A stretch of 64,000 bases of DNA from Methanofollis aquaemaris. GTDB taxonomy: Archaea; Halobacteriota; Methanomicrobia; Methanomicrobiales; Methanofollaceae. The notes under the pieces are model-generated. The model was given only the letters and a program-made list of their open reading frames with translations. It had not been told where the DNA came from and ran no database searches. Shown in pieces: positions 29,597 to 49,841 of the stretch (within the stretch, counting starts at the first letter, position 1; every line of letters starts with the position of its first letter). A program made the position numbers and the translations under genes. Location of the stretch: positions 2,082,561 to 2,146,560 of the forward strand of contig NZ_CP036172.1 in assembly GCF_017357525.1 (NCBI RefSeq), written 5' to 3'.

Positions 29597-30826
29597 TCAT
29601 ACAGATTCGTCCTCGACGCACCAGTCCATCAGTTGAGCCGCGCGTAATTCTTCTGCCCCCGTATAATCGACGCCGTAAATGTCCTGGTAAAAGGACAGCA
29701 CCCATTCGTTCAGGTCTATGTCTTCAAATCTGTCGGGATATGTCGACTTTGCAATGACCATCATGTTGATCGGATATTCCAGACGTTCTGCGGAGTTTCT
29801 GGGTGCATAGGGGAGGGACGTGACGTGGTGATCTTTCACGGCGTCGAGTTCCCGGAGATTTCTGTAATAGGGTGCGTAATACAGTTCGTCGGGCGGATGA
29901 TACCCGCTGGCCGTACCGAGAATGATGACGTCCGGGTTCATGGCAAGGACCTGTTCGGTGTTTATGACCTGGAACGTACCCACATCAGATCTGTACGCGT
30001 TTTTTGCATTGACAACATTTTCGACGATGTACGATTCGGTCGTCTTCAGTCCCCAGGCTATTCCCGCGGCAGTCTCGGTCCTGTGCATGGAAGAGAGTCC
30101 GAAGAGCAGCACACCGAGTTTTTGATCGTCAGATATATTTTGCGTCCTTTCTCTGATCCGGTCCTCCCGTGACTCCAGTTTTGCTATGATTTCTTCTGCC
30201 TTCTTTTCTTCTCCGAAGACGTTGCCGATGATCCGGATTTCGTCTGATATTTCGGTGGGGTCGGCATTTTTAGCGCATTCGGGAGTATACAGAACAACAA
30301 CCGGAATGCCGAGCGATTCGATCATTCTGATGCTTTTCTGTGCGTTCTCGTCCTCTCCGGAGAGAAATGACGAACTTCCGAGGCGTATGATGACCACGTC
30401 CGGTTTGAGGGAGGCGAGCGTCTCAAGATTCATTGCCGAACCGTAATCCATGAACAGGGGAAGGTCTTTGAGATGCGGTGAGAGAGCAAGCGCGACATTC
30501 TTTCCTCCCTCGATTGACAGGTTTCTTCCATTGTCAAGGGAATAGCTGTAGTTAGAGACAAATTGGGAACCCTTCGACCCGAGGCCGACGATCGTGTCGT
30601 CGACACCGAAGATATACATCACTTCCTCGACGAGGCCGTCCGATACGGTCGCCACTCTCTCGATTTTCGCGGGTATCGTGACTTCGATGCCGCGGCTGTC
30701 CGTCACCGTTCTGACCTGCTCGTTTGCGATTGCGTTATCCGGGGTTGTTTCCTGCGTTTGCATGCACCCGCAAAAGGCAACCGCCGAGACCAGGATGCAG
30801 AAGACGATTGCTGTCTGAATTTTCAT
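29597..30826 (-). CDS. ABC transporter substrate-binding lipoprotein (iron/cobalamin BtuF-FecB type)
   Basis: A 409-residue periplasmic-binding-type protein. An N-terminal hydrophobic stretch VFCILVSAVAFCGC ends in a lipobox-like cysteine. The mature domain starts VTDSRGIEVTIPAKIERVAT, typical of the iron-siderophore/cobalamin family (PF01497), and continues with LASLKPDVVIIRLGSSSF and a C-terminal lobe containing MNPDVIILGTASGYHPPDELYYAPYYRNL. The start is taken at MKIQTAIVF, which has GGAGG upstream and overlaps the methyltransferase stop as ATGA. No permease or ATPase gene is adjacent, so it must use a distant transporter or act as a binder. It is the last gene of the PadR-linked cassette and AT-richer than the core genes. 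Confidence 0.88.
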   Translation of the reverse strand: MKIQTAIVFCILVSAVAFCGCMQTQETTPDNAIANEQVRTVTDSRGIEVTIPAKIERVATVSDGLVEEVMYIFGVDDTIVGLGSKGSQFVSNYSYSLDNGRNLSIEGGKNVALALSPHLKDLPLFMDYGSAMNLETLASLKPDVVIIRLGSSSFLSGEDENAQKSIRMIESLGIPVVVLYTPECAKNADPTEISDEIRIIGNVFGEEKKAEEIIAKLESREDRIRERTQNISDDQKLGVLLFGLSSMHRTETAAGIAWGLKTTESYIVENVVNAKNAYRSDVGTFQVINTEQVLAMNPDVIILGTASGYHPPDELYYAPYYRNLRELDAVKDHHVTSLPYAPRNSAERLEYPINMMVIAKSTYPDRFEDIDLNEWVLSFYQDIYGVDYTGAEELRAAQLMDWCVEDESV

Positions 30827-31434
30827 GTTCTCGCCTCCGGCACACAAAATGAGATCATGTAGTTGTACCCGAGATCTGCCAGACCGATCCTTTCAAAGCC
30901 GTAGTGCGATATGATCGGTTCAAGTTCTTCCGCCGATATGCGCATCCTGAACGGCGGGCCGAAATGCATCTCCTCTTTTTTGCATTCGATGACGACCAGG
31001 CGCCCGTGTCTCTTCAGGACGCGTCGAATGTCTGAAAAGAGCGTCTCAGCCACCTGATCGAGGTCGAGGGCGTGGAGGACCGTGACGAGGAAACAGACAT
31101 CAATGGTGTCGTCGTCGAAGGGCAACCGCTCTGAGAGATCGGCGACCGTTGCCGTGATATTTTTCAACCCGGCTAAATCCGCTTTTTTCATCAGGGCGTC
31201 GGCCAGATCTTCCCGTATGTCCACGGCAATGACCGACCCCTGGTCACCGACCTCTCGTGCGGCATACAGGGAATATTCGCCTGCTCCGCAACCGAGGTCG
31301 AGGAAGACGTCTCCTTTCTTGAGGTTCACTTCCTGAAATATCCGGTCCGGGTCGTGCATCCAGAAACTGCTCGGACTTCTCTTTCCGTGGCCGCCCTCGC
31401 CGTGACGGCACACGGGCCTCTCTGTGTCCTCCAT
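30823..31434 (-). CDS. Class I SAM-dependent methyltransferase
   Basis: A 203-residue protein starting at MEDTERPVCRHG, chosen because AAGGAGGAG lies just upstream and the longer frame would overlap the neighbouring stop. The SAM site is clear: VFLDLGCGAGEYSLYAAREVG near residue 45, IAVDIRED, and a post-II motif DVCFLVTVLHAL. The N terminus has a Cys-His-rich CRHGEGGHG that could bind metal. The substrate is unknown; relatives include small-molecule and arsenite methyltransferases. It lies between the TrmO-FmdE fusion (25-base gap) and the substrate-binding protein (4-base overlap), so it belongs to the same transcription unit. Confidence 0.85.
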   Translation of the reverse strand: MEDTERPVCRHGEGGHGKRSPSSFWMHDPDRIFQEVNLKKGDVFLDLGCGAGEYSLYAAREVGDQGSVIAVDIREDLADALMKKADLAGLKNITATVADLSERLPFDDDTIDVCFLVTVLHALDLDQVAETLFSDIRRVLKRHGRLVVIECKKEEMHFGPPFRMRISAEELEPIISHYGFERIGLADLGYNYMISFCVPEART

Positions 31435-31459
31435 GGTGGTGTGTCTCCTCCTTCTGTCT

Positions 31460-32782
31460 TCATGCTTTTTCGACGATGCCTCTGCCTTCAACTTCCCGAT
31501 ATTTCCTGCTGCACATGAAACACATCCCTGTATCTCTGTCGATCTTTGTGGCCATCACGATCTCCCCGCACTGCGGGCAGACGGCGCTCGCCGCTATCGG
31601 GGCGTAGTCGGGAATGTCGGGAACAACGGTTTCAGCGACGAATATTTTTTCAAAGGGGAGTTTCATCAGTGCAAAAGCGGCTTCCTGTCCTTTTTCTCTG
31701 AAACTTTTCTCTTCTTCCGGTGTTCCCGCCCGGTTCATGATGACTTTTTCCATCAACGGGTAGAACTCGGGGACGGCGTCTCCGACATATTTCTTGAACT
31801 CGGGCCTGGCTCGTATGCGGACTCCTTCTTCTTTTCCGCGGACGGCAAACGTGACCGCAAGTTTTCCGAGGTCGCGGTAGATGAGGGAGTTGTTTCCCAG
31901 CGTGCACCCCGAAACCGCCTGGACGCCGTCGGCGAAGCAGGCATTGATCTCGACGATTGCAAGGAGGTTCTCCATAACGCCGTCTGAGTTCATGCAGTCC
32001 GGGCCGAGAAGGTGCAGGCCGTACATCGAGGCCATCACGCCGAGGGCGCTGCCCGGACAATAATGCCCGTGAATTTCCGCCGTTTTTACCAGACAGGTCG
32101 CGATATCTTTCTTTCGAAGCGCCTCTCCGAACTCTGCCCGCGGGTTTATTCTCAATTTTTCGATCCTCGCGCTCTCGAGCACACCTGAACAGAACAGGTC
32201 TCCGGCATTTTCATTGACATTCTCTTTCATTTCATCACTCTCTTTGTATTCGTTCATGATCGCATCCATCCATTCGGGAACAAAAGTGTCGTTCTGCGGG
32301 AATTGTTCACCCACATAGGGTTTGAGGTCCAGGACCGGGCTTCTGTCGATTGCGTCCAGACCAGAGACGGTCAATGTGGTGCCGTCCCTTCCCAGCAGCC
32401 GGACCACCGTCATCAGCAGAGGGTTTGGGCGGGCCGGGCTGCAGGTGGAAAAGATGCCCTTTAACGGGTAATCGGTACGGCCGACAGGGTGAACTTTTTT
32501 CAGGGACCGACCGGTGTCTGAAACCTCGTGACCCCAGTAGAGAACCACGATGTGGGAGAAGTCTTCGATGCCCTCGAGGAGATCGGCCATCTCCTCCTGT
32601 ATGACGATCTTCGAACGCGCGTCCGATGCTTCATGAAATTTTTTCAGTGCGGTGCCCGGTTCATCGTTCAGTTTCAGGCCGTCGCCGTCCGCGACGAGTT
32701 GCGGTGCTGCCAGATCGTTCCTGATGATCCCGATGGGTTTCAGCGTGATAGCCTCCGCTAGTGTCGTGTCTGTTTGTTCCAT
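31460..32782 (-). CDS. Fusion of TrmO/TsaA-like and FmdE-like domains
   Basis: A 440-residue two-domain protein. Residues 10-160 match the TrmO/YaeB fold (tRNA t6A methyltransferase-like, SAM-binding): LKPIGIIRND, then SHIVVLYWGH, HPVGRTDYPLKGIFSTCSPA with ARPNPLLMTVV, and GLDAIDRSPVLDLKPY. After a linker rich in Glu, Lys and Asn, residues 200-440 match FmdE (PF02663): IHGHYCPGSALGVMASMYGL, VEINACFADGVQAVSGCTLG, and a C-terminal zinc ribbon CPQCGE...CFMC. FmdE-type proteins bind zinc and are linked to molybdenum or tungsten enzymes, but their role is unsettled. The fusion suggests methylation or SAM binding tied to a metal-cofactor step. Confidence 0.85.
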   Translation of the reverse strand: MEQTDTTLAEAITLKPIGIIRNDLAAPQLVADGDGLKLNDEPGTALKKFHEASDARSKIVIQEEMADLLEGIEDFSHIVVLYWGHEVSDTGRSLKKVHPVGRTDYPLKGIFSTCSPARPNPLLMTVVRLLGRDGTTLTVSGLDAIDRSPVLDLKPYVGEQFPQNDTFVPEWMDAIMNEYKESDEMKENVNENAGDLFCSGVLESARIEKLRINPRAEFGEALRKKDIATCLVKTAEIHGHYCPGSALGVMASMYGLHLLGPDCMNSDGVMENLLAIVEINACFADGVQAVSGCTLGNNSLIYRDLGKLAVTFAVRGKEEGVRIRARPEFKKYVGDAVPEFYPLMEKVIMNRAGTPEEEKSFREKGQEAAFALMKLPFEKIFVAETVVPDIPDYAPIAASAVCPQCGEIVMATKIDRDTGMCFMCSRKYREVEGRGIVEKA

Positions 32783-32798
32783 TTTTTTGTCTCCTGGT

Positions 32799-33278
32799 CT
32801 AAAGGGTCTTTATTTCTTCAAAACTCCTTTTTAGAATCTCTTTTGCCTGGTCTATCTTCTCTTCGGGAAGTTTTTCTACATAGAACCTGATGTCCATCAT
32901 GAGATGGATCAACGAAATATTCTCTTCTCCGAAAATTTCGAGGTGCATTTTTTTAAAAAAATTCACTCTCTCTTCAGACCCTTCTCTTTCGTTTTTGAAG
33001 TTCGAGATCGTTTTTTCTCCTGCATCTGTCAGTTCGTATGTTGTCTTTGAGCGCTTTCCGACTTCTTTTACTCTGATGAGTCCCTCCGATTCAAGAGATT
33101 TTAACAGGGGGTACACGGTTCCTTTGTTCGGAACCCACGTCCCCTCGGTCTGTTCGGCGATCTCCTTGAGGAGGTCGTACCCGGATTTCGGCTCTTTCTC
33201 CAGGGAGTGGAGGATCAGGACGGTGAGCAGTCCTCTCTCTTTTCCTTTTTCGGGGGTGAATTTCCAGATGCTGTGCAT
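32799..33278 (-). CDS. PadR family transcriptional regulator
   Basis: A 159-residue PadR-type repressor. The winged helix spans residues 15-95, with GLLTVLILHSLEKEPKSGYD, KEIAEQTEGTWVPNKGTVYP and LLKSLESEGLIRVKE. A C-terminal helical dimer arm (about 100-155) follows. PadR proteins respond to small ligands and bind inverted repeats at promoters. The gene starts downstream of a promoter with a GTRACAA palindrome near its start site. It lies 16 bases before the TrmO-FmdE gene, so it probably controls itself and the three following genes, and plausibly the activase gene upstream as well. Confidence 0.9.
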   Translation of the reverse strand: MHSIWKFTPEKGKERGLLTVLILHSLEKEPKSGYDLLKEIAEQTEGTWVPNKGTVYPLLKSLESEGLIRVKEVGKRSKTTYELTDAGEKTISNFKNEREGSEERVNFFKKMHLEIFGEENISLIHLMMDIRFYVEKLPEEKIDQAKEILKRSFEEIKTL

Positions 33279-33339
33279 AATTCTCTCGTGTTTTGAGATC
33301 GGTGCGGTGACATTTGAAGGTTTTTATGCCAACGGTTTG

Positions 33340-33395
33340 GTAACAACCTATTGTCACAACATTGTTATAAGAGTTGCGTATTGTGTGATCACAAC
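33340..33395 (-). promoter_or_regulatory. Promoter and putative operators of the PadR operon
   Basis: On the minus strand TTATAA (33365-33370) can serve as TATA box, with transcription expected near 33342. The inverted repeat GTAACAA-CCTA-TTGTCAC (33340-33357, one mismatch) covers that start. A perfect 10-bp palindrome TGTGATCACA lies upstream at 33384-33393. The positions fit repression by the PadR protein encoded next. Which site it binds is inference. Confidence 0.5.
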
Positions 33396-33490
33396 ACAGC
33401 GATATGTCACATCGTCCGATCCGGTACCCTGCTCTCTCAAAAATCGGAGAGGAGCGGAAGACCGGCGCTCTTCCCCTGGTGTGCGAATAC

Positions 33491-36400
33491 CTACAGATAA
33501 TACAGGAACGATTCTATCTTTGTTTTCGTATTCTCATTTTCGTTCCCGTCGAATGTCAGGTTGAGAATCGGTTTTGACCTGTTGCGTTCATCTCCCTGGT
33601 GCAGGGTATTGAGTGCGATTCCCGTATTTTCATAGATCGACGCCACCGTTATGATGCCGTCGATTACTGCCCCGGCACACCGGGTTTTTGCTCCCCGGTA
33701 TCTCCCGAAGGCGCCGGCATAATAGCCCAGGGTGCTGTCGGCCGTTGCGGCAAGACTCTTCACGTGCTTTTCGAAGGGACTGTACTCTGAGAGACACCCG
33801 GATATCTGTGAGATGGCGTCTTCAAACACCTCCAGTTTCTGGTGCAGCATCGTTTTGTTTTTCTTTCCGTTTTGAACGATGAAATCGTTCCACAGGAGCC
33901 ACATGGATTCGCTCAGGGGAGCGTAGACCACCCGATGGTGGTTCTCTTCGATGTTTTTGAACGTTGCATTGTTTAAATAGTCGTTGAAGAGGATCATGGG
34001 TTCGCCGATTGCGAGAATGGTCTTTTTGTAGTTCTTTGCACGGTGTTCGGCACACATGTTCCCTGCCAGCTCTTTCAGGAATTCGAGGTGGAGACGACCG
34101 TCCTGAGACGCTTCGAGGACCATGTCGAGATAATCGTCTCTCCGCTCCGGGGGTGCATTGCGGACGATGTCTCCTGCGATCAGGACGAGAAAGATGGTGT
34201 CGAGATCGGTCGCGTCTTTCAACAGCGCGTCCTCGACAAATGGAGCAACGACGGCGATATCTTTCAGTTCCTTTGCATCCAGAATCGTTCTCAGGATGCG
34301 GTTGTACTGGCCGTCGACTTCTGCTCCCTCGGACTGCGGGATGAGTATTGCAGACGGTTTTTCATGATCCGTGCGAGTATCGAAGAAATTCACGACGTCT
34401 CCGATCAGAGCGATCAGAGAAAAATATTCGTTCGTTAAGGCGTATTTCCGCCCGGCGTTTATGCTGCCGAAGTCGGGTGCCGGCAGCGTTTGTGCATGTA
34501 TCCCGGCGTTTTTCAAAGATGCACAGTAGATGTGCGAGTACGGGTAGATGTTCGGCACATAGATCGTCGCCCCGTCCTCCAGTTCCGCACGATCGGGCGT
34601 GATATTCGCTCTCCGGTGAGCCACCTTTCCGGGATATGTTTCCAGGGCATCTGCCGTTCCGGCGGGAATGGTATTCAGGCTGTTGATAAAAGCTTCGAGT
34701 CGCGTGATCACGCCGACATCTGAAGAATGTTCGTCGACCTCGATGTTCAGATAGGGTTTCCCATCCATAATTTCCCTGAAATAATGGGAAAAAACCGTGT
34801 CCGGACCGCACCCGTGATGGGTCAGGAATATTGCGTAGAGGTTCGGATGTGCTTTGACGATCTGCGCCGCTTCGAGGATGTGCTGACCGAAGGGCCAGTA
34901 CATATTCGGGTGTTCTTTCGAGATGTCGCCTCCGGGCAGGTTGTAAAATGCCAGGACTTTATAGCCTTTTTCTGCAAGTCTGTCGGGAATTCCAAGGTTC
35001 AGTGCCGGGTCGGACACCCCGTACGTCTTTGAGATGATGACAAACGCTTTTTCGTCGGGCCTGAGATTTTTCACCAGTTCTCTGCTGGTTTCTTCGATCC
35101 TGGTCTCGAAATCGAGGAATGCTTTCATTCCTTTCTGGAGGGCCATGAGCGTTTCTTCGGGATCTTTTCCAAGTTTCCGCCCGAGATCCATGAAACTTTT
35201 TTTCATGAATTCTTCTCCGAGACTGAACCCGAATGTCGGCGAGAGGAGTTTGATACCTTTTTTGTCAAGTTCCATCGCCTTGTTGACCATCTTGAAGGCG
35301 ATCTGCATATAGGGACAGCCATAGTCCTGCCTCGAATGGGAACCCGGGTGGGGTACGGTGAAGAGATCAGGGAAGAAAATATAGTCCACCTTTTTTTGTA
35401 CCAGTTCGGCGACGTGGCCGTTGATCAATTTTACCGGATAGCATGTTTCATCCAGCGAGTACTCCTGGCCCAGCCTGACGGTTTCTTCATTGGTGGGATC
35501 CGACAGAATGACATTGAACCCAAGGTCCCTGAAAAAGGTGCTGAACATGGGGTACATGCCATAGGTGAAGAGTGCCCGCGGGATGCCGATGATCGGCTTG
35601 TCTTCATCATATGAACCATCGTATCCTTCGAAGATCAGTTCATTGACTCTGTTGTCAAATCTTGATTCGGTCTTTGGTGTTTCACTTTTCAGGGTAATCC
35701 TGGGAGCATCGCGAATATCAAATCCTTTGAATTTTGTTTGGGCTGTGTTCATCTCGTCTTTTGTCAGAATTGCCGCACCGTAGGCACCGGTGACACTAAA
35801 AAACGGGGGGACAATAATTTCTTTGCCGGTGAGCGCTCTGAAAGCATTGACAACTCCCTGGTTGTATGCGATGCCCCCCTGGAGGAATATTTTCTCTCCT
35901 ATTTTATTCTGCCCGACAACTCTATTCAAATAATTTTTCGCGATGGAGTAACAGAGTCCGGCGGCAATGTCGTCGATTTTCGTGCCGCTGGATAAATGTG
36001 TGGCAATACTTGTTTCGATAAAAACGGTACATCTCTCGCCAAGATGAACGGGGTGGCGACTGTTGATCGCGATGGTGCCGAAATTGTTAATGGGTATATC
36101 AAATTTTTTTGATTGCTCTTCGATAAATGAACCCGTGCCCGCAGCACAGATTTTGTTCATCTGGAAATCGGTCACCATGCCGTCATGAAGGCTGATGTAT
36201 TTGGAGTCCTGTCCGCCGATTTCGAATACCGTATCAACATCTCTGTCGATGGTGGTCGCTGCTTTCGCCTGTGCGGTAATTTCGTCTTTGATCACGTCGG
36301 CCCCGATCAGTCTCCCGATCATATGCCTGCCCGATCCGGTGATCCCCACGCCCAGAATATTTATTTTGTCCCCAATTTCATTTTTTAATTCATTGAATCC

Positions 36401-37558
36401 TTTTTTTACTGATTGAAATGGATCTCCGAGTGTTTTGAGATATCGGTAGGACAGAATCTCGTTGTACGGGTTCATGAGCACAAGATTGGTGCTGGTCGAT
36501 CCGACGTCTATGCCCAGGTAGCAGTCGCTTTTTTCGCTTTTTTCACCGAATGGTTTGCAAAGATGTTTTCTTTTGCTGTCTCCATCGCCGAAGGCGTTGA
36601 GTGCCGGCAGTTCATCTTCCCCGGTATCGATGATGGATCTGTCATCCGCACTATCCAGGATATCCAGGATGTCTTTATAGCGGAGCCGGAGATGATCGTT
36701 TTTTGCAACTCTCGCTGCACCCACGGCTGCGGTATTCCCACATTTTTCGCAGACAACCAGTTCATGTTCTCTTAAATTGAGGACATCTTTAACCGCGCCA
36801 ACAATGGCGTCGTTATAGGCTACTCCTCCTGTCAGCATGATGGGTTTTTCAAGGGGGAATTTTTTAATGACCGTTCCGCGATAATTCCTTATGAGGGCAT
36901 ACGCAAGTCCCAGAAGAATATCTTCTATCGGGACTCCTTCTTGCTGGTGATGAATGATGTCGGTTTTTGCAAAAACGCTGCATCTTCCGGCAATCCTTGG
37001 GATAAATATTGCATTTGCGGCATATGATGAATAGTCTTCAATATCAAGATTGAGTCTTGATGTTTGTTCTTCCAGAAAAGATCCTGTTCCTGCCGAACAG
37101 CTGGAATTCATTGAAATTTGAATGGTTGATCTGTTGTCCTTGTTCAGTCCTGTGATGTATTTTGCACTCTCTCCACCGATTTCGATGATAGATTTTATGG
37201 TGTCCTGTATGGTGAGGCATCCCTCTACCAGTGCCAGGACGTCGTTTATGTGCTGAATAGTCCAATTTCTGGTTGTGAATTTGCTTTCACTCCCGGTCAC
37301 CGCTCCGGTCGTTATATTGTCGAGATTATATTTTCGTGGGATTTTTTTCAGGATTTTTTTCAGGGTTTCTTTGATTTTTCCTTTGTGCAGGATGTAATCG
37401 GTGTAAACGATTGCGTTTGAGTCATTGAGCAGTGCGATTTTCACTGATGAGTAGCCGATATCAATTCCTAAACTATATACCGGATTGAATTCGGTGATCT
37501 CACACAGGTGGTGGCTGTCTTCATCTTTTATTACGATTTCCGACATTTTTTCGAGCAT
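33491..37558 (-). CDS. Giant acyl-CoA dehydratase activase-like ATPase fused to HgdB-like region
   Basis: A 1355-residue protein. Two ASKHA ATPase modules of the HgdC/BadF type occur in tandem. Module 1 (about 30-290) has YSLGIDIGYSSVKIAL, SSCSAGTGSFLEEQ and AGRCSVFAKTD. Module 2 (about 345-625) has YLGIDVGSTSTNLVL, KICAAGTGSFIEEQ and GERCTVFIETS. The cysteines in the CSAGTG/CAAGTG and GRCSVF/ERCTVF motifs match ligands of the bridging [4Fe-4S] cluster of activases. A DUF2229-like part (about 670-900) has IGIPRALFTYGMYPMF, and an HgdB-like C-terminal half has THHGCGPDTVFSHYF and EVDEHSSDVG. Such proteins deliver low-potential electrons driven by ATP. The start at MLEKMSEIV has AGGAG upstream. 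It is AT-richer than core genes, suggesting acquisition. Confidence 0.85.
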   Translation of the reverse strand: MLEKMSEIVIKDEDSHHLCEITEFNPVYSLGIDIGYSSVKIALLNDSNAIVYTDYILHKGKIKETLKKILKKIPRKYNLDNITTGAVTGSESKFTTRNWTIQHINDVLALVEGCLTIQDTIKSIIEIGGESAKYITGLNKDNRSTIQISMNSSCSAGTGSFLEEQTSRLNLDIEDYSSYAANAIFIPRIAGRCSVFAKTDIIHHQQEGVPIEDILLGLAYALIRNYRGTVIKKFPLEKPIMLTGGVAYNDAIVGAVKDVLNLREHELVVCEKCGNTAAVGAARVAKNDHLRLRYKDILDILDSADDRSIIDTGEDELPALNAFGDGDSKRKHLCKPFGEKSEKSDCYLGIDVGSTSTNLVLMNPYNEILSYRYLKTLGDPFQSVKKGFNELKNEIGDKINILGVGITGSGRHMIGRLIGADVIKDEITAQAKAATTIDRDVDTVFEIGGQDSKYISLHDGMVTDFQMNKICAAGTGSFIEEQSKKFDIPINNFGTIAINSRHPVHLGERCTVFIETSIATHLSSGTKIDDIAAGLCYSIAKNYLNRVVGQNKIGEKIFLQGGIAYNQGVVNAFRALTGKEIIVPPFFSVTGAYGAAILTKDEMNTAQTKFKGFDIRDAPRITLKSETPKTESRFDNRVNELIFEGYDGSYDEDKPIIGIPRALFTYGMYPMFSTFFRDLGFNVILSDPTNEETVRLGQEYSLDETCYPVKLINGHVAELVQKKVDYIFFPDLFTVPHPGSHSRQDYGCPYMQIAFKMVNKAMELDKKGIKLLSPTFGFSLGEEFMKKSFMDLGRKLGKDPEETLMALQKGMKAFLDFETRIEETSRELVKNLRPDEKAFVIISKTYGVSDPALNLGIPDRLAEKGYKVLAFYNLPGGDISKEHPNMYWPFGQHILEAAQIVKAHPNLYAIFLTHHGCGPDTVFSHYFREIMDGKPYLNIEVDEHSSDVGVITRLEAFINSLNTIPAGTADALETYPGKVAHRRANITPDRAELEDGATIYVPNIYPYSHIYCASLKNAGIHAQTLPAPDFGSINAGRKYALTNEYFSLIALIGDVVNFFDTRTDHEKPSAILIPQSEGAEVDGQYNRILRTILDAKELKDIAVVAPFVEDALLKDATDLDTIFLVLIAGDIVRNAPPERRDDYLDMVLEASQDGRLHLEFLKELAGNMCAEHRAKNYKKTILAIGEPMILFNDYLNNATFKNIEENHHRVVYAPLSESMWLLWNDFIVQNGKKNKTMLHQKLEVFEDAISQISGCLSEYSPFEKHVKSLAATADSTLGYYAGAFGRYRGAKTRCAGAVIDGIITVASIYENTGIALNTLHQGDERNRSKPILNLTFDGNENENTKTKIESFLYYL

Positions 37559-37589: not shown

Positions 37590-37650
37590 GGGATCGTCAA
37601 TAGTTAATTCTCAAACTGTATATTTTCAAACAGTTCACAATCAAACTGTG
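37590..37650 (-). promoter_or_regulatory. Promoter of the activase gene with AACTGT inverted repeats
   Basis: The plus-strand sequence has AACTGT (37614-37619), ACAGTT (37630-37635) and AACTGT (37644-37649), giving nested inverted repeats. The minus-strand TATA-like AAAATATA (37619-37626) lies within the first repeat, so a bound protein would block TBP. Transcription is expected about 25 bases downstream, followed by an AGGAG ribosome site. A PadR-type repressor is the natural candidate. Confidence 0.5.
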
Positions 37651-37903
37651 AAGGATAGGTCCATTGTTAGGGGCATAAATAGATTTGCCGAACAAAATTT
37701 GATTTTCTGGCGTTTCTGGAACTTTTCCGATCGATGGAGGGTTTTCGTCTCCCTAGATTCAAGGCGCAATTGGCCCATCTTTCTTTTGTCGAGAATACTC
37801 TGGTTCTTATCTTATTTCTCCTTGAGATTTCCTGACCGATGCGGTTTATGGAAGGGCACCCCTCTCTCCGGGACGCGAGGTCGCAAAGAGCACGATCGTG
37901 TTG

Positions 37904-38543: not shown

Positions 38544-38882
38544 TCACGGTATATTTTTCATCATCCCCGTATTCCGCATCCAGAGATAATACGGCAGGAA
38601 GAACGGCCAGAAGAGGAGAACCCAGATCGCCCACGACTGAGGTTTCCATGTTCTGATCTCCCTGAGTTGCTCGGGTTCCGCCTCTTTTCCGGCACCGATC
38701 GCTCTCGCGTCAAAATAGACGACCAATGCACTGAGAACCGCCAACACGGTCATGAGAACGGTGGCGACACCTCTCCCGCCGAGATTCAAGATTGCCGTCG
38801 TCAACAGTCCGGCAAGCAGGATCATGAGCACCACGCCTGGCCTATCCAGCCAGGATTCGGTTCCGGAGGCATCGCCGGTCAT
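38544..38882 (-). CDS. Small membrane protein co-encoded with an ABC permease
   Basis: A 112-residue protein with two N-terminal membrane helices (GVVLMILLAGLLTTAIL, then GVATVLMTVLAVLSALVVYF) and a C-terminal hydrophobic segment WAIWVLLFWPFFLPYYLW near residue 90. The start at MTGDASG overlaps the stop of the upstream permease gene (ATGA), so translation is coupled. I do not recognise the family; the C-terminal stretch resembles short membrane-anchoring domains found beside ABC-2 permeases. It probably works with the permease. Confidence 0.75.
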   Translation of the reverse strand: MTGDASGTESWLDRPGVVLMILLAGLLTTAILNLGGRGVATVLMTVLAVLSALVVYFDARAIGAGKEAEPEQLREIRTWKPQSWAIWVLLFWPFFLPYYLWMRNTGMMKNIP

Positions 38883-39898
38883 CGGATGTCCTCCCGCATG
38901 AACCTGACCCACGCCACCCCGAAGAAGGCCGCAGGCATCGCGAGCAGGGCGATGACGTTGCAGGCGATGCCTTGCATCTCGCCGCCAGGCCGACAGACAA
39001 CATTCTGGACCGCCTGATAGTTGCCGGTCGGAGAGATAAGCGTGACGATATCGGTGATCATCTGTTTCTGCGTCATGTATCGTCTCGACGCCTTCTCATA
39101 GGCTTCGAGATCTTCGCTTTCTATCGTGTCGCCGGATGTTACCCCGACTCTTGTGTAGGTCGAAGAACTCTGCTGGTATGCGTAGGTGGAGGTGCCGGGA
39201 AGGTCGGGGGGATCGCCGAAGATGGCCGAGTATACCGGGCCGAACGTGAAGATCGGGATGAACGAAGAGAGGACGATCATCACGATCAGAGCATACAGCA
39301 GGGCGCTCCCGCTGTCCTTCGAGACCGCCGACATCAACAGGGAGAGTGAGAAGAACGTGAACATCAGGAGGAACGAAACCACACCAGAGATCAGTATGCG
39401 TACCATCTCTTCGTGGTCCGGGACAAGTCCGAAGATGCTCATGATCGCAAGGGAGACAATCAGGACGATCCCCATCGCGAGGGCGATCGCTCCCAACCCG
39501 CCGAGGGCCTTGCCGTTGATCACTTCGTCCCGGTATATCGGATGGGATAGCAGAATTTTCAGAGTTTTGTTCTCTTTTTCCCGGGTCACCAGGTCGAAGC
39601 CCATGGCGATCCCGAGCACCACGCCGATACTGGCGGTCAGGATCCCCATCTGATAATAAACCGAGAGGATGGATGGTTTCATGCCGGCAAGATCGCCGTC
39701 GACCGTAAGGTCTTCGCTCTGGGTAATCGTCTGGACCGCATTGTAATCGGCGATATCCTTGCTATACTGCACAACTCCGGCAATCATGCCGACAGCGGCG
39801 ATGACGACCAGGATCCCGAGGAGGAGATGAAACCGCCTGCTCCGGATATGATCTGAAAATTCCTTTTTTGCTATGATACGCAGCCCGTTTGCAGTCAT
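38879..39898 (-). CDS. ABC-2 type transporter permease
   Basis: A 339-residue membrane protein. An N-terminal amphipathic helix (RIIAKKEFSDHIRSRRF) is followed by a first helix LLLGILVVIAAVGMIAGVV and a long extracytoplasmic loop with a SILSVYYQMG segment. Five more helices include MGFDLVTREKENKTLKILLS between them. This matches NosY/ABC-2 permeases, in which TREKExxTLxxLLS is a conserved signature. The start is set at MTANGLRII, with CCAGGA upstream. No ATP-binding gene lies on either side, which is unusual; the ATPase must be encoded elsewhere or lost. Confidence 0.85.
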   Translation of the reverse strand: MTANGLRIIAKKEFSDHIRSRRFHLLLGILVVIAAVGMIAGVVQYSKDIADYNAVQTITQSEDLTVDGDLAGMKPSILSVYYQMGILTASIGVVLGIAMGFDLVTREKENKTLKILLSHPIYRDEVINGKALGGLGAIALAMGIVLIVSLAIMSIFGLVPDHEEMVRILISGVVSFLLMFTFFSLSLLMSAVSKDSGSALLYALIVMIVLSSFIPIFTFGPVYSAIFGDPPDLPGTSTYAYQQSSSTYTRVGVTSGDTIESEDLEAYEKASRRYMTQKQMITDIVTLISPTGNYQAVQNVVCRPGGEMQGIACNVIALLAMPAAFFGVAWVRFMREDIR

Positions 39899-40590
39899 GG
39901 TTCCTGGATTTCTGTGCAATTGAGCGGCCCATATAGATTCTGTCACAAAGTGTTACCCATCAGGGATGAACCTCGGGCTCAAGCATATTGGATGAAAATT
40001 ATCAGGTGTCTCTGGATTGAGCATGGATCCTTGCTTTCTTCTTTAGAGCAGGACACCACGTGGGAACGCCATCATTGCCACCCCCTGCCTCTCCTCGTCG
40101 TGAGGGTATGGGGAGTCTTTCCCCGGCGCGAGAGTGTGGTGAAGATTTTACGATCGGGGTGGCCTCTCAGATTGAGATGCCTTCCCCCATGAATCGCACC
40201 GGGGGCTCCGCCGCCTATCTTCTTCGGGGGTCAGCCATCCTCCCGGAGTGATATCCATCCTTGGGGTGGGAAGGCACACTATTGAGAGATGATCCATCTC
40301 TCACCCTGCTCATAGCGTAGTGAGCCTGTACGCGCATCCATCCCTGTGATCACAGAGAAGGTATCAGGGCCAGGGTCACTTATTGGGGATTTCATTCACT
40401 GCGAAATCTTGCTGTCTGGATTTCTGAGTAGTCGTGTGATCCATATGAGGGGTGGCACGCCGGATCATCACACTTCTCTTCATGGGAGAGGATAGGCAGT
40501 AGGACAGATTTCTGAAAGGTATTATCTCAACCACTGTGTTCTTTACCAGTCCTGGGCATTCTCACGCTTCCCTCCCGACCCGATGGAAAT
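39899..40590. repeat. Intergenic region with dispersed GC-rich element, copy 5
   Basis: No gene is evident in these 690 bases between divergent genes. The part at about 39960-40270 holds the second module reversed (GGGATGAACCTCGGGCTC with AAGCATATTGG) and a core-like block CGGGGGCTCCGCCGCCTATC then TTCTTCGGGGGTC (about 40198-40233). The remainder shows no repeat I could place. Confidence 0.55.
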
Positions 40591-40632
40591 CTATAAATAT
40601 GTTCATAGTACTTTCATTCTATTGTAGTAGAA
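40591..40632 (+). promoter_or_regulatory. Promoter and putative BlaI-type operator
   Basis: CTATAAATAT (40591-40600) is a strong TATA box. About 10-30 bases downstream lie AGTACT and TGTAGTAG, whose TGTAGTA matches a half-site of the BlaI/MecI operator (TACTACA...TGTAGTA). The position over the expected start site suits autorepression by the first gene. The left half-site is poorly conserved. Confidence 0.5.
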
Positions 40633-40680
40633 TATCGAGAACACTCGCAATCGATCCCGGGCTACAAAGGAGCCGTACAC

Positions 40681-41040
40681 ATGGCGATCAAGTTGTTTGA
40701 CTCTGAATTGAAGGTCATGGATGTCCTCTGGAAAGAGGGAGATACCACTGCAAAACAGATTGCAGAAATCTTGAATGAGCAGGTGGACTGGAGCAAGACG
40801 ACTACCTATACGGTCATCAAAAAGTGCGTGGATAAAGGAGCGATTCAAAGGAGCGACCCGCACTTTGTGTGTCACCCGCGTATCACGCGAGAAGAAGCAC
40901 AGGAGTTTGAAACAAATGAACTCATTGTGAAGATGTACGACGGTGCTGCCGACCAACTAGTCGCCTCTATATTAGGGCGTAAGGATCTGTCCAGAGACGA
41001 GATCGAGCGCCTGAAGCAGATTGTCAACAGTCTGGAATGA
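40681..41040 (+). CDS. blaI: BlaI/MecI/CopY family repressor
   Basis: A 119-residue winged-helix repressor. The DNA-binding part (1-75) includes LFDSELKVMDVLWKEGDTTA, KQIAEILNEQVDWSKTTTYT and VIKKCVDKGAIQR, the standard BlaI pattern. The C-terminal helices (80-118) form the dimer arm with FETNELIVKMYDGAADQLVA. The ATG is preceded by AAAGGAG. It is followed at once by a BlaR1-like metallopeptidase gene, whose start at 41051 lies 11 bases after this stop. In bacteria BlaI represses beta-lactamase or related genes and is cleaved after BlaR1 activation. Confidence 0.9.
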   Translation: MAIKLFDSELKVMDVLWKEGDTTAKQIAEILNEQVDWSKTTTYTVIKKCVDKGAIQRSDPHFVCHPRITREEAQEFETNELIVKMYDGAADQLVASILGRKDLSRDEIERLKQIVNSLE

Positions 41041-41050
41041 GGTGGCGGAT

Positions 41051-42715
41051 ATGTCGATTATAGGTATGACACTCTCCGCGTCTGTCCTCATTCTGGTGGT
41101 CGTGGTGATCCGTGCACTTTTTCTCCACAGAGTTCCGAAAATAACATTTTTGGCGCTGTGGGGTATTGTGTTGTGCCGCTTGCTCGTTCCGTTTTCCATA
41201 CCGTCGCGGTTTAGCGTCTATACGCTGATAGACCGGGTGGGAAATATGTTTTCGGAACAGGTCGTGATTCCGATCTCGACGGCTGAAGGGATTCACTCTC
41301 TTGCTATCGCTTCAGAAACGCCCGCATCGTCAGTATCGTCTGCTCTGTTCGTCTCCCCCCTGACACTGGTATGGTTGGCCGGCATCTTCGCCTGTGCCCT
41401 GTTCTTCATCGCCACGCATGTACGATGTCGTCGAGAATACGGGATGGCGCTGCCGGTTGAGAGCGACCTTGTGGCTGCGTGGCAACAGGAACATCCGACA
41501 CGGCGACCTGTGCAGGTCAGAGAGTCTGATAAAATTTCCGCTCCGCTGACGTACGGGATCATCAGGCCGGTGGTATTGTTGCCGAAATCAATGGATTATA
41601 CCAACAAACGTCAGCTGCGGTATATCCTTGCCCATGAGTACACGCACGTCAGGCGGTTTGATACGCTGGCAAAGAGTCTGCTGGCTGCTGCGCTGTGCGT
41701 TCACTGGTTCAATCCTGTGGTGTGGGTGATGTATGTCCTTGCAAACCGGGATATCGAACTTGCCTGTGATGAAGCGATCGTGCGGACGTTTGGTGAGACG
41801 ACGAGATCTGCGTATGCTCGTACCCTTATCACCATGGAGGAAAAGAAAAGCGGACTGACTACTTTATGCAACAACTTCAGCAGAAATGCGATTGAAGAAA
41901 GGATCGTGTCCATCATGAAAACAAAGAAAACGACGACTTTTGGTATTGTCCTGGCGTTGGTGCTTGTTGTTGGTACTGCAGCAGCATTTGCAACATCAGG
42001 GATATCACAGATCCAGAACGGAGATACGTCGGTTAACGCCGACGGAATCGCAATTGGAGATCACACCGATGGTATCACATATGTAGTCGTAGAAGGAAAC
42101 GATCATCCGCAGACAATCCGAGATATCCCTGAGGAGCAGGATTTATTATCCAAATACGGTTCATATGGCATTTCTTTTGATGAAAATGATAAAATGTGTT
42201 TCGATGGTGACCTTGTCAGATACTTTTTGGATGGTGTCGAATTAGATGACAATACATCGGCTGTCTATTATGAATATCTAAATGCGGATGGTATGGTTGA
42301 CGTCCATACAACGCGAAAAGTGATAGACAACGGTGATGGGAGTGTAAATCCTTTTGGTGGATTAATAGGAATTGAAAAATATAGCCAGGAGGAATATGCA
42401 CAAAGAAACCTGTCTGATTTGAAAATGTTGTCTGGATCGGACACATATGTAGTAGAGGACGTATCGGGGGGGTCTGGACAGGGCGAATCAGTTGTACAGA
42501 GGTTTTCCAAGTATAAGAGATATGGAATTGAGTACAAAGAACGAGAAGGAGGCAGCGTTGGCAACGTCTATTATAACGGACAAATGGTACAGATATTTAT
42601 AGACGAAAACAAATCGAGTGGAATATTTACCTATCGGTCTGTTGGTGGTGGTGAAATCGTTGTTCATACGATTTATGACGAAAATGGAAAGTTGATTGGA
42701 GTGGAAGAAGAATAA
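41051..42715 (+). CDS. BlaR1/M56-type membrane metallopeptidase with unknown sensor domain
   Basis: A 554-residue membrane protein. Residues 1-300 form an M56 peptidase with several helices and the zinc motif HEYTHVRRFD (HExxH) near residue 195, followed by ELACDEAIV with the likely third ligand. A further helix (TFGIVLALVLVVGTAAAFAT, about 297-316) leads to an outside C-terminal domain of about 230 residues rich in beta-type sequence, with two similar segments (SKYGSYGISFDENDKMCFDG and SKYKRYGIEYKEREGGSVGN). That domain does not look like the penicillin-binding sensor of BlaR1. The start MSIIGMTLS has GAGGTGG upstream. Low GC relative to neighbours suggests transfer from bacteria. Confidence 0.85.
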   Translation: MSIIGMTLSASVLILVVVVIRALFLHRVPKITFLALWGIVLCRLLVPFSIPSRFSVYTLIDRVGNMFSEQVVIPISTAEGIHSLAIASETPASSVSSALFVSPLTLVWLAGIFACALFFIATHVRCRREYGMALPVESDLVAAWQQEHPTRRPVQVRESDKISAPLTYGIIRPVVLLPKSMDYTNKRQLRYILAHEYTHVRRFDTLAKSLLAAALCVHWFNPVVWVMYVLANRDIELACDEAIVRTFGETTRSAYARTLITMEEKKSGLTTLCNNFSRNAIEERIVSIMKTKKTTTFGIVLALVLVVGTAAAFATSGISQIQNGDTSVNADGIAIGDHTDGITYVVVEGNDHPQTIRDIPEEQDLLSKYGSYGISFDENDKMCFDGDLVRYFLDGVELDDNTSAVYYEYLNADGMVDVHTTRKVIDNGDGSVNPFGGLIGIEKYSQEEYAQRNLSDLKMLSGSDTYVVEDVSGGSGQGESVVQRFSKYKRYGIEYKEREGGSVGNVYYNGQMVQIFIDENKSSGIFTYRSVGGGEIVVHTIYDENGKLIGVEEE

Positions 42716-43011: not shown

Positions 43012-43473
43012 TCAGATAATATGCCCCGGAATATCTTCCGTCAGGTACCAATCACAGTACAGACAGTGCAGCCCCCGCTTCGTCACCTCGAACCTGCTCT
43101 TGATCGGTTCGTTGGTGTTGGAGATGCACCCCCGGTTCGGGCACCTGACCACGCCCAGGAGCACCTTCGGGATCTCGACCCCCATCTTCTCGCAGACTAG
43201 ATAGTCCCTGATGATGTTGATCGTGGCCTGGGGAGCGATGAGGGCGATGCGGTCGACCTCCTCGGTGCAGAGTTCGCGGTCTGAGATCTTGACCACGTCC
43301 TTTCTGCCCGACTTCTCGCTCACCACATTGGTGGCGATGGAGAGACACTCGTCGGTCGTCCCGGTGATCCCGAGGATCTTGAGCACATTGAGGGCCTCGC
43401 CCGCGGTGATATGGTCGATCACCGTTCCGTTCCTGATCGGGCTGATCTGCAGCACCCGCGGTTCGTCTTTCAT
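43012..43473 (-). CDS. pyrI: Aspartate carbamoyltransferase regulatory subunit
   Basis: A 153-residue regulatory chain of aspartate transcarbamoylase. The nucleotide-binding domain (1-100) has ISPIRNGTVIDHITAG and ELCTEEVDRIALIAPQATIN. The C-terminal zinc domain has CPNRGC near residue 111 and CLYCD near 140, the four structural cysteines. It assembles with PyrB and binds ATP or CTP to tune pyrimidine synthesis. It overlaps pyrB by four bases and ends the operon. Confidence 0.96.
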   Translation of the reverse strand: MKDEPRVLQISPIRNGTVIDHITAGEALNVLKILGITGTTDECLSIATNVVSEKSGRKDVVKISDRELCTEEVDRIALIAPQATINIIRDYLVCEKMGVEIPKVLLGVVRCPNRGCISNTNEPIKSRFEVTKRGLHCLYCDWYLTEDIPGHII

Positions 43474-44369
43474 CCCATCACCTCCAGGAGGAGGGCCATC
43501 CTGATCGGGACGCCGTTCCTCGCCTGCTGGAAATATTTTGCGTGCGGGAGGGCGTCGACCCGGGAATCGATCTCGTCGACCCGCGGGAGGGGGTGAAGGA
43601 CGATCATCTGTTCCTTCGCCTGTGTCAGGAGTTCGGGGGTGACCCGATAGCTCGAAGCCACCGCATAATACGAGGCCGAGTCGGGGAAGCGCTCCCGCTG
43701 GATCCTGGTGACATACATCACGTCGAGTGCCCGCGTGAACTCACCGATCTCGTCGTGGACGACGATCTCGACACCCCGCTCGCGCAGTTCCTCGACGACG
43801 TTGGGCGGCATCTCCAGGCCCTCGGGGGCGAGGGTGTGGATGGTGACGTCGTACTGCGTCAGGGCGTAGGCGAGCGAGTGGGCTGTCCGCCCGTACCGCA
43901 GGTCGCCGAGGAGTCCCACATCGATCCCTTCGAGCGGCATCGCCTGCCTGATCGTGTACAGGTCGATGAGCGTCTGGGACGGGTGCTGCCCGGCACCGTC
44001 GCCGGCGTTGAGGACCGGGACCGAGGCAAACTCGCTGGCCAGTTGTGCCGCCCCCTCCTTGGGGTGACGGAGCACGATCGCGTCGGCATACCCGCTCACC
44101 ACCCTGATGGTGTCGGCGAGGGTCTCGCCCTTCACGACCGAACTCACCTCCACGCCGCCCATGTCGATGGAGGCCCCGCCGAGCCTGGCCATCGCCGCCT
44201 CGAACGACATCCTCGTCCTGGTCGAGGGCTCGAAGAAGAGCACCCCGAGGATCTTGTCCTCCAGGGCCTTCGGGTCATAGTTGCCCTGGTCGATCGTCTC
44301 TGCCCGATCGAGGAGGGCGTCGATCTCCTTCTTCTCAAACTCCTTGATTGAGATGATGTGCTGCCGCAT
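43470..44369 (-). CDS. pyrB: Aspartate carbamoyltransferase catalytic subunit
   Basis: A 299-residue catalytic chain that joins carbamoyl phosphate to aspartate in pyrimidine synthesis. The carbamoyl-phosphate motif FFEPSTRTRMSFEAAM is near residue 47, with further active-site elements SVVKGETLADT, HPKEGAA, DGAGQHPSQTLIDLYTI near 130, and LHPLPRVDEID near 261. The start is set at MRQHIISIK, with the stop of trmI immediately upstream. It runs into pyrI with a four-base overlap. Confidence 0.96.
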   Translation of the reverse strand: MRQHIISIKEFEKKEIDALLDRAETIDQGNYDPKALEDKILGVLFFEPSTRTRMSFEAAMARLGGASIDMGGVEVSSVVKGETLADTIRVVSGYADAIVLRHPKEGAAQLASEFASVPVLNAGDGAGQHPSQTLIDLYTIRQAMPLEGIDVGLLGDLRYGRTAHSLAYALTQYDVTIHTLAPEGLEMPPNVVEELRERGVEIVVHDEIGEFTRALDVMYVTRIQRERFPDSASYYAVASSYRVTPELLTQAKEQMIVLHPLPRVDEIDSRVDALPHAKYFQQARNGVPIRMALLLEVMG

Positions 44370-44370
44370 C

Positions 44371-45102
44371 TTACCGCCTTGCAATCGTGATATAACCTGA
44401 GTGTCCGACCCGCGTCGACGGTCTGGTGCCGCGCTTGCCCCGCGTCATCTCCCGCTCCATGCACTCATAGGTGTGCACCTCTGAGAAGAGCGTTGCGGCG
44501 GCGTCATAGGCCGCGTTCATCCCCTCGATGAAGGGGGTGTAGCAGGCGAGGTACCCGCCCGGCACCAGGAGGGCGCGGGCGCGGGCGACATGGTCGTAGG
44601 TGACCGGGAGGTCGAGGTGGACGATGTCGAAGCATTCCTCTCCTTCCACGTCGAGGACATCGCAGGCCCGCACCTCAACGTTCTCAAGCCCGGCATCTCT
44701 GATATTTTTCTCGGCCCGCGTCGCAAACTCGGGCCTGATCTCGCAGGTGACGACCGACCGGGCGATCCCGCCAAAATAGATCGCCGCGATCCCGCTCCCG
44801 GTCCCCGCGTCCAGAACGACGTCGTTCTTGTTCATGCCGGTGTAGGCGATGACCATCCCGATGTCCTTGGGGAGCATCGGGGCCCCGGTCCGGGAGGCAT
44901 GGTTGAAGAAATCGGTGGCTTTCGGTCGCCTGACCGTGAACTCGTGCCCCAGGTGAGTGGCGGCGATGCTCCCGTACGCGGCCCCGACCAGGGCTTCGAG
45001 GTCGAGGATCCCCAGGTCGGTGGAGAGGGTGCCCTCGCCGGCACGTACATAGTACTCCCGCTTGTTCGAGACGAGGAGCAGCCGCTCCCCTGCCTGGATC
45101 AT
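44371..45102 (-). CDS. trmI: tRNA (adenine-N1)-methyltransferase TrmI
   Basis: A 243-residue SAM-dependent enzyme of the TrmI/Gcd14 family, which in archaea forms m1A at positions 57 and 58 of tRNA. The N-terminal domain has GEGTLSTDLGILDLEALVGA. The catalytic part has RTGAPMLPKDIGMVIAYTGM, the SAM motif VVLDAGTGSGIAAIYFGG near residue 95, CEIRPEF, and DIVHLDLPVTYDHV. The C-terminal MTRGKRGTRPSTRVGHSGYI is a family signature. It overlaps the NAC gene upstream by four bases and precedes pyrB by one base. Confidence 0.94.
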   Translation of the reverse strand: MIQAGERLLLVSNKREYYVRAGEGTLSTDLGILDLEALVGAAYGSIAATHLGHEFTVRRPKATDFFNHASRTGAPMLPKDIGMVIAYTGMNKNDVVLDAGTGSGIAAIYFGGIARSVVTCEIRPEFATRAEKNIRDAGLENVEVRACDVLDVEGEECFDIVHLDLPVTYDHVARARALLVPGGYLACYTPFIEGMNAAYDAAATLFSEVHTYECMEREMTRGKRGTRPSTRVGHSGYITIARR

Positions 45103-45443
45103 GCGCCGCTCAGCCGCATGATCGCCTCGGCGATGTCGCCGTTGGTGGCGGTGAGCGCCTCTTTTGCGGCTTCTGCAGAGGCGTTGGTCTGGACCATTAC
45201 CAGTTTGACGTCTTCTTCGGGGATCTCGACGGCCGCCGGTTCGAACCGCGCCTCGCCGTTGATCTGGTAGGTGGTGGTCCCCTGCATGATCGTGGCGACG
45301 ACCTCGGCCTCGTCGAAGACATAGTCCCCTTTCTCGGTCTCGATGACGACCCGCTTGACATCTTCAAGCGTCTCCATCTGCATGCCGAGCTGCTTCATCA
45401 TCTGCTTCATCTTTTTTGGATTGATCTTACCGCCTGGAAACAC
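45099..45443 (-). CDS. nac: Nascent polypeptide-associated complex protein (NAC)
   Basis: A 114-residue archaeal alpha-NAC that binds ribosomes and emerging chains. The N-terminal part has KINPKKMKQMMKQLGMQMET. The NAC beta-barrel (about 24-72) has VKRVVIETEKGDYVFDEAEV and the C-terminal UBA-like domain (about 75-113) has VKLVMVQTNASAEAAKEALT. Length is as expected. It sits between the PUA protein (two-base gap) and trmI (four-base overlap) in one operon. Confidence 0.95.
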   Translation of the reverse strand: MFPGGKINPKKMKQMMKQLGMQMETLEDVKRVVIETEKGDYVFDEAEVVATIMQGTTTYQINGEARFEPAAVEIPEEDVKLVMVQTNASAEAAKEALTATNGDIAEAIMRLSGA

Positions 45444-45445
45444 GT

Positions 45446-45955
45446 TTACTTCCCTCCTTTCCGTACTTTTACCGCTACTCCGTAATCAAATGCCATCATC
45501 TCGTCGCCCGAGAGGGCGGCCTCGCCGGTGCCGAGAAGGTCGTCGCCCTCCCGCACCACCAGCACCTCGTCGCCTGGGCGGATCCCGGGGTCGGCGGCGA
45601 CGACGTGTTTGGAAAAGGCGTTCTTCCCCTGCGCCACGAACTCGGCGGCGTCCTCCATCACCACGACCCGGTAGGCCGGGGCCGGGATGGCGGCCCGGAG
45701 CCGTCGGGCTCCTTCGATCCCGAGGGTGAACCGTCCGTCCTGGGCCCTGACCGTGACGAGCCGCTGATTTTCTAGCATCACCTGTCTGACCCGTTTGGTC
45801 TTCGACCTGACGAACCGGCACCCTTCAGGGAAGAGGGCTTCGCCTGCCCCCCGTCCGAACTGGAAGTCGGCGATGGTCCGGACCTGCTCCAGCGCGCGCG
45901 CTCCTGATCTTCCTATCACAACACACAGACTCCTGTACCAGATCCTGACATGCAT
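45446..45955 (-). CDS. PUA-domain RNA-binding protein
   Basis: A 169-residue protein with a C-terminal PUA domain (about 85-165). The domain has RVVVMEDAAEFVAQGKNAFS, KHVVAADPGIRPGDEVLVV and GTGEAALSGDEMMAFDYGVA, like the domain of archaeosine transglycosylase and MCT-1/Tma20. The N-terminal part has FQFGRGAGEALFPEGCRF. The ATG start adds 12 residues (MHVRIWYRSLCV) of doubtful character. A GTG at 45919 preceded by AGGAG is a reasonable alternative giving 157 residues. Its place beside NAC fits a translation-linked role. Confidence 0.82.
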   Translation of the reverse strand: MHVRIWYRSLCVVIGRSGARALEQVRTIADFQFGRGAGEALFPEGCRFVRSKTKRVRQVMLENQRLVTVRAQDGRFTLGIEGARRLRAAIPAPAYRVVVMEDAAEFVAQGKNAFSKHVVAADPGIRPGDEVLVVREGDDLLGTGEAALSGDEMMAFDYGVAVKVRKGGK

Positions 45956-49766: not shown

Positions 49767-49841
49767 TAATTATACAGAACCACGGGATCCGTCCCGTTGA
49801 GGAATGTGGCGCGAAAGCGCCGAACCTTGAGGTGAATACGA
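49767..49841 (+). promoter_or_regulatory. Leader of the L15e gene with two tetraloop hairpins
   Basis: TAATTATA (49767-49774) is a possible TATA box; AATAATAA (49746-49753) is another. Two perfect hairpins follow. The first is ACGGGA-TCCG-TCCCGT (49782-49797) and the second is GGCGC-GAAA-GCGCC (49808-49821), the latter with a GNRA loop. TTGAGGTG ahead of the ATG is the ribosome binding site. If transcription starts at the upstream box, both hairpins are in the mRNA and could form a protein-binding leader. Confidence 0.45.

Follow-up and report, generated by a model that had tools for sequence, protein, structure and literature searches.

What could a giant activase-like protein be doing next to a PadR regulator, a TrmO-FmdE fusion, a methyltransferase and a substrate-binding lipoprotein? 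The question is raised by five genes of Methanofollis aquaemaris located within a stretch of 64,000 nucleotides (the window) of its complete 2.75-Mb methanogen genome. Our answer, which we hold tentatively and with slightly less than even confidence, is that this cassette serves the import of a metal chelate and its ATP-driven reductive processing under the control of PadR. As to the substrate and the reaction, we infer that iron is the likeliest metal, because of the iron-type regulators and Suf/Feo genes found with relatives of the activase, followed by a corrinoid or another tetrapyrrole, suggested by cobalamin riboswitches and CbiX. The genes are the following.

33491-37558, minus strand: activase gene (ACT), ATG start with a GGAGATG ribosome site, 1355 aa
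32799-33278, minus strand: padR, PadR-family regulator (Pfam PadR, 1.9e-18), in the identical position in all archaeal cassettes
31460-32782, minus strand: TrmO-FmdE fusion gene (Pfam FmdE, 5e-37; TrmO_N, 2e-25)
30823-31491, minus strand: MT, class I S-adenosylmethionine (SAM) methyltransferase (Pfam Methyltransf_31, 3e-18)
29597-30847, minus strand: SBP, FecB/BtuF-type substrate-binding lipoprotein (Pfam Peripla_BP_2, 6e-21)

An earlier note, made from the letters of the window alone, had described five same-strand genes of these families in an AT-richer block, the last four being 25 bases or less apart or overlapping. All the open reading frames were indeed found on the minus strand, Pfam matches recovered the five families, the block has a guanine plus cytosine content of 44-56% (60-67% on the left side) and the spacing of padR, TrmO-FmdE, MT and SBP was as described. 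The start of ACT is most plausibly the ATG at 37558; a TTG at 37600, upstream, would yield 1369 aa. For SBP the probable start is the ATG at 30826. Between ACT and padR is a gap of 212 bp that holds an operator-like site of its own, so ACT is possibly transcribed separately.

ACT as a predicted single-chain reductase

Pfam recognizes two BcrAD_BadFG domains (2e-65) and DUF2229 (2e-60) in ACT, and the part beyond residue 615 had previously been annotated only as DUF2229. Numbered along the 1369-aa reading, the predicted domains, two of them resembling 2-hydroxyacyl-CoA dehydratase (HAD) and the double-cubane cluster protein (DCCP), are these.

aa ~41-306: ASKHA1, activator-type ATPase domain with cluster cysteines
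aa ~360-615: ASKHA2, activator-type ATPase domain with cluster cysteines
aa ~641-980: HAD/DCCP-like domain A, with DUF2229 and C720, C762 and C931
aa ~985-1369: HAD/DCCP-like domain B, without conserved cysteine

In an alignment of 66 homologues the ASKHA cluster cysteine pairs C168/C207 and C485/C524 are invariant, and by sequence these domains match PDB activator structures of the HgdC/HadI type (4eht, 1e-37). C720, C762 and C931 of domain A are likewise invariant and domain B has no invariant cysteine; the three residues are compatible with a [8Fe-9S] double-cubane cluster. AlphaFold2 models were obtained for aa 641-1369 (mean pLDDT 90.5) and aa 976-1369 (mean pLDDT 90.3). Domain A (aa 641-980) reached a VIA-align Z of 15.7 to the HAD/DCCP/class I benzoyl-CoA reductase (BCR) group, the next unrelated row being at 7.0, and domain B (aa 976-1369) a Z of 13.1, the next unrelated row being at 4.7. 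Only HAD, DCCP and class I BCRs match both halves well above background. Sequence and models together thus depict ACT as one polypeptide with two ASKHA ATPase domains and two HAD/class I BCR/DCCP-fold reductase domains and, because both halves of the C-terminal part fit reductase folds, as a predicted ATP-driven single-chain reductase laid out like MbdONPQ. The double ASKHA activase of 1355 aa with both sets of cluster cysteines that had been noticed earlier is therefore present, but it appears not to be merely an activase, its C-terminal half being the putative reductase itself.

Like ACT, the class I BCRs (BcrABCD, BzdNOPQ, MbdONPQ) have two ASKHA parts with bridging-cluster cysteines and two HAD-fold parts (Z 9-15). 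However, they are made of four subunits and ACT of one chain, ACT has conserved cysteines in its first reductase domain only, and its loci carry metal-chelate neighbours and no aromatic or CoA genes. By Foldseek, both reductase domains came closest to DCCP of the DCCP:DCCP-R system (6eno, 7yzm), from which ACT differs by its fusion to two activase domains and by an identity of 12-16%. The physiological role of DCCP is unknown (PMC11971306). HAD together with its activator HgdC/HadI is also alike in fold and activator domains (the 4eht match above), but ACT is single-chain and lacks a dehydratase gene context.

This shared fold of the HAD/BCR subunits and of their activators would also suit a single-chain catabolic enzyme acting on CoA esters (a 2-hydroxyacyl-CoA dehydratase or an aryl-CoA reductase), with neighbours that are incidental. 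We find this improbable, since genes for aromatic-CoA pathways, CoA ligases, transferases or beta-oxidation are not recurrent around ACT in the 33 members of the ACT clade described below, whereas metal-handling genes are, and the hosts include hydrogenotrophic and methylotrophic methanogens.

All the parts belong to known superfamilies, and the single-chain layout and its linkage are undescribed in the open literature searched. Searches for FmdE with PadR, for DUF2229 and for activase with Fur returned no description of the system in a coverage that leaves subscription journals largely outside, and no search term for this family occurs in a paper on the MCR activation complex (PMC12176620).

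Conservation and distribution of the gene set

The order ACT-PadR-TrmO-FmdE-MT is kept in Methanolobus (loci L121 and L124), Methanospirillum stamsii (L120), Methanogenium cariaci (L038) and two more Methanomicrobiales (L118 and L119). Another Methanolobus (L054) has the cassette order without a detected FmdE, which brings the total to six to seven other methanogens. The earlier note had made its proposal depend on whether the set is ever conserved together; it is, and in order. At L118 and L119 SBP is followed by FecC and the ATPase (FecE), so that the importer is complete. ACT loci of a second, compact type were seen in two Methanosarcinaceae-like genomes (L122:3752-10078 and L123:7846-14199); they read SBP-FecC-ACT, fecC and ACT sharing 4 bp, and lack MT. 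Near one Methanolobus cassette (L124:1808-3303) there is a NifB-like radical SAM gene with DUF134; the proximity of the NifB-like gene to ACT, found in this one genome only, was judged to be chance.

Genomes with the full-length activase number 7 of 393 in the phylum of M. aquaemaris, 4 of 247 in that of Desulfonema and 8 of 341 in the class of one Tissierellales metagenome-assembled genome. A tree of 66 ACT proteins groups all nine archaeal sequences in a single clade, nested within a clade of 33 members (archaea, Bacillota, Thermodesulfobacteriota, Bacteroidota, Synergistota and Spirochaetota). MT is present at 26 of the 33 loci of this larger clade, in 14 of them directly behind ACT; of 44 further ACT loci only one has it (L030, without an assigned place in the tree). 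The methyltransferase is dedicated to this ACT clade and its family is specific to the system.

Genomes of family f22 (L125-L129) have PadR, FmdE, MT, TrmO, SBPs and FecCD, and ACT is absent from them. There the region PadR-FmdE-MT-TrmO-SBP_5-FecBCD is duplicated and accompanied by MATE and O-methyltransferase (OMT) genes, with no activase.

Operator-like sites

A matrix of 12 bases was built solely from other genomes, using the sites before padR plus one before ACT. The following sites of the window are concerned.

33329-33340, no strand assigned: operator-like site CCAACGGTTTGG, ~50 bp upstream of padR, the best matrix match in the 64-kb window
37611-37652, minus strand: operator-like triple TATACAGTTTGA, TGAACTGTTTGA, TTCACAGTTTGA, spaced exactly 15 bp, upstream of ACT

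The matrix also fits the three copies upstream of ACT. This triple with 15-bp spacing is the only one in the window and appeared in none of 300 shuffles. The score of a single site was reached in 10 of 300 shuffles, and for this reason the argument for an operator rests on the triple of ACT and on the position before padR. In the relatives the motif precedes padR, ACT, FeoA-ACT, CbiX (L121) and SBP-OMT-SBP. The candidate sites for PadR at 33340 and 37614, proposed earlier, coincide with this conserved, putatively regulatory motif. A strict pattern of the motif gave one further site across the genome of M. aquaemaris, inside another gene. No strong operator-like site was found at the distant fecC of this genome (see below), which leaves its membership in the regulon unsupported.

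The accessory proteins

The fusion protein keeps the FmdE metal-site motifs HGHYC (HGHxC) and CFADGVQ (CxxDxxQ) and ends in a zinc-finger-like tail (CxxC...CxxC); its TrmO half passes Pfam TrmO_N and scores 92.6 bits with TIGR00104 (cut-off 93.25). The FmdE family (PF02663) has a metal-site motif of HxHxC plus Cys/Asp/Gln, binds Zn or Ni, and its genes mostly adjoin metal transporters (PMC2954224). The same TrmO-FmdE fusion is found at L118 and in Desulfosarcina cetonica (L046), there adjoining ACT, and some f22 genomes have MT-TrmO fusions; through these gene fusions MT, TrmO and FmdE are tied together. A link to molybdenum or tungsten by way of FmdE, mentioned in the earlier note, had to be abandoned as a general one, Moco riboswitches having been seen at one of ~36 loci only, as one pair by a separate transporter downstream of Ssu genes (L042).

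MT forms a sharply defined family in the alignment (motifs PSSF.MHD and ECKKE..FGPP...R.SP.E), and its closest paralogue in the same genome is only 29% identical. Its best scores with curated models were to arsenite and selenoprotein methyltransferases, far below the cut-offs. Taken with an ArsP-like permease between ACT and ABC genes at L033 and L083, and with an Ssu-like permease that matches SaoP at 1e-30 (below cut-off), they could point to the reductive methylation or detoxification of a thiophilic metal(loid) such as arsenic, mercury, antimony or selenium, akin to the ArsM or Sao systems. We give this little credence. MT does not belong to ArsM (66.8 bits against a cut-off of 263), the alignment contains no invariant cysteine outside the LGCG motif of the SAM region, of the kind needed for arsenite methylation, all scores fall far under the curated cut-offs, and the Fur, Feo, Suf and siderophore-type genes fit badly. 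The Sao organometal system has a methyltransferase and Ssu-like ABC relatives that resemble genes of ACT loci, at scores below cut-off. Neither selenocysteine nor a MerB-like lyase, by which it differs, was seen here.

SBP fits ferrichrome models better than BtuF, to which its similarity is weak. A complete FecBCD importer set was not found at the locus, where the binding protein alone is encoded. The FecC of this genome most like the cassette type lies ~450 kb away and is 77% identical to the cassette FecC of L119 (genome G314). Three FecB-type SBPs stand beside this cassette-type FecC (L136:2549-9298). The lipoprotein without a permease of the earlier note is thus accurate for the locus, but we rejected it as a reading of the system, since a cassette-type FecC exists elsewhere in the genome and directly follows the lipoprotein in two relatives. 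The cassette resembles FecBCD/BtuCDF importers with FmdE neighbours in the FecB-FecC-FecE order of its relatives and in the known adjacency of FmdE to transporters (PMC2954224); it differs from them in the addition of a predicted ATP-driven reductase, a dedicated methyltransferase and TrmO, and in an importer that is split in M. aquaemaris.

Neighbours of ACT and riboswitches

A divergent Crp-type regulator accompanies ACT at 18 bacterial loci, and other regulators beside it are ferric-type Fur, DtxR/MntR-type, MarR, and AraC with TonB receptors. SufB/C-like pairs, flavodoxin, MsbA-like ABC pairs, Ssu-like ABC, Opp and FecBCD are recurrent, and siderophore-type TonB receptors and RhtX/FptX-like MFS transporters also occur near ACT in bacteria. 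FeoA is located directly before ACT at L119 and FeoB near it at L144. The common factor of all these neighbours is the import and use of a metal-bearing compound.

An Rfam scan of the window and ~36 ACT loci detected no riboswitch in the archaeal loci and cobalamin riboswitches in a few bacterial ones only. In Desulfonema magnum one is located directly upstream of an RhtX/FptX-like MFS-FmdE-ACT array and a second strong one before a TonB receptor, the two flanking the locus in an 8.0-Mb genome that has only 10. Weaker cobalamin links are those at L052 (before a Nik-type Opp operon adjoining ACT), L047 (two) and L139 (weak, beside ACT-TrmO). Along these lines, the cassette might instead salvage a corrinoid or another tetrapyrrole, ACT reducing the metal or the ring as a BCR-type counterpart of the nitrogenase-like DPOR, COR and CfbCD. 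The CbiX gene with an operator-like site at L121, the weak BtuF similarity of SBP and a tetrapyrrole methylase at L028 point in the same direction. We regard this as rather unlikely, since ~30 other bacterial loci have no cobalamin riboswitch, iron-type regulators and Suf/Feo genes are commoner, and the ferrichrome models describe SBP better. Upstream of the ACT locus with the cobalamin riboswitches in Desulfonema magnum (L028:1403-3371) there are in fact two such methylases, both apparently with a signal peptide; export would be unusual for enzymes of the corrin type.

A possible mechanism

If the cassette does import and reductively process a metal chelate, the FecB-type lipoprotein would bind the chelate outside the cell and a FecCD-type importer, adjacent in relatives and encoded elsewhere in this genome, would take it in. 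FmdE could then dock the metal or the chelate through its HxHxC/C metal site. ATP hydrolysis by ACT would lift electrons to potentials out of the reach of ferredoxin or NADH and reduce the metal centre or the ligand, which MT, perhaps also TrmO, may methylate so that the metal is released or its rebinding blocked. PadR would keep both ACT and the operon padR-trmO/fmdE-MT-SBP repressed as long as neither the chelate nor a metal shortage is sensed. The earlier note had suggested PadR-controlled uptake of a cofactor or chelate with its reductive activation or methylation. The conserved cassette, the operator-like sites, the fusions and the metal regulators and transporters nearby agree with it; that ACT is a complete putative reductase and that the permease lies elsewhere do not.

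Several observations weigh against import and reductive processing of a chelate as we propose it. The f22 genomes keep PadR-FmdE-MT-TrmO-FecBCD without ACT, so the other genes can do without the reductase. The transporter class differs by lineage (FecBCD, Opp, Ssu-like, MFS, MsbA-like pairs), and the cargo may therefore differ as well. The riboswitch that directly precedes the Desulfonema magnum array is for cobalamin, not iron, and a sporadic distribution of ACT (~2% of genomes) is no proof of a dedicated function.

The potentials of ferric siderophores and metallotetrapyrroles can lie outside the range of ordinary reductants. A more specific version, which we put forward as unlikely, is that ACT reduces a metallotetrapyrrole or metallophore at the expense of ATP (by a Birch-like ring reduction or with release of the metal) and the methyltransferase locks the product. 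ACT would then represent a further, non-nitrogenase-like class of ATP-driven metal-complex reductases for anaerobic iron or cobalt supply. The conserved linkage of such a reductase with a private methyltransferase and metal-chelate import offers a testable role for DCCP-type ATP-driven reductases, both in methanogens and in several bacterial phyla, together with a limited number of operons on which to test it. It points to a route, not described so far, by which anaerobes could exploit metal compounds that are hard to reduce.

History of the insertion site

The distance from CoaD to the conserved genes at 43012-45955 of the window is 13.5 kb here and 2.8 kb in G005, a genome of the same genus with ~95% protein identity. 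G002 has a stand-alone TrmO at the corresponding chromosomal site, and G004 has one nearby. With the TrmO half of the fusion it shares 76% identity, whereas the fusion of G022 shares only 65%. Most simply, the cassette is old at this site and some species have lost all of it but TrmO; alternatively, a local TrmO may have been captured by the cassette. This lone TrmO, the sporadic distribution and the absence of FecC and the ATPase from the locus would also be expected if the set were mobile or in decay and its members had ceased to work together in M. aquaemaris. This seems improbable to us, as the five frames are intact with their invariant residues, operator-like sites are kept at both promoters and a matching FecC is kept elsewhere.

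Adjoining the cassette (38544-42715 of the window) are an ABC-2 permease (38879-39946) and a BlaI-like/M56 peptidase pair (40681-42715). Because this pair is also found at the same chromosomal site in G003, the site appears to collect variable genes. Farther along the window, at 49783-49831, there is an eL15 ribosomal protein leader of Euryarchaeota (Rfam RF03144, 40.8 bits).

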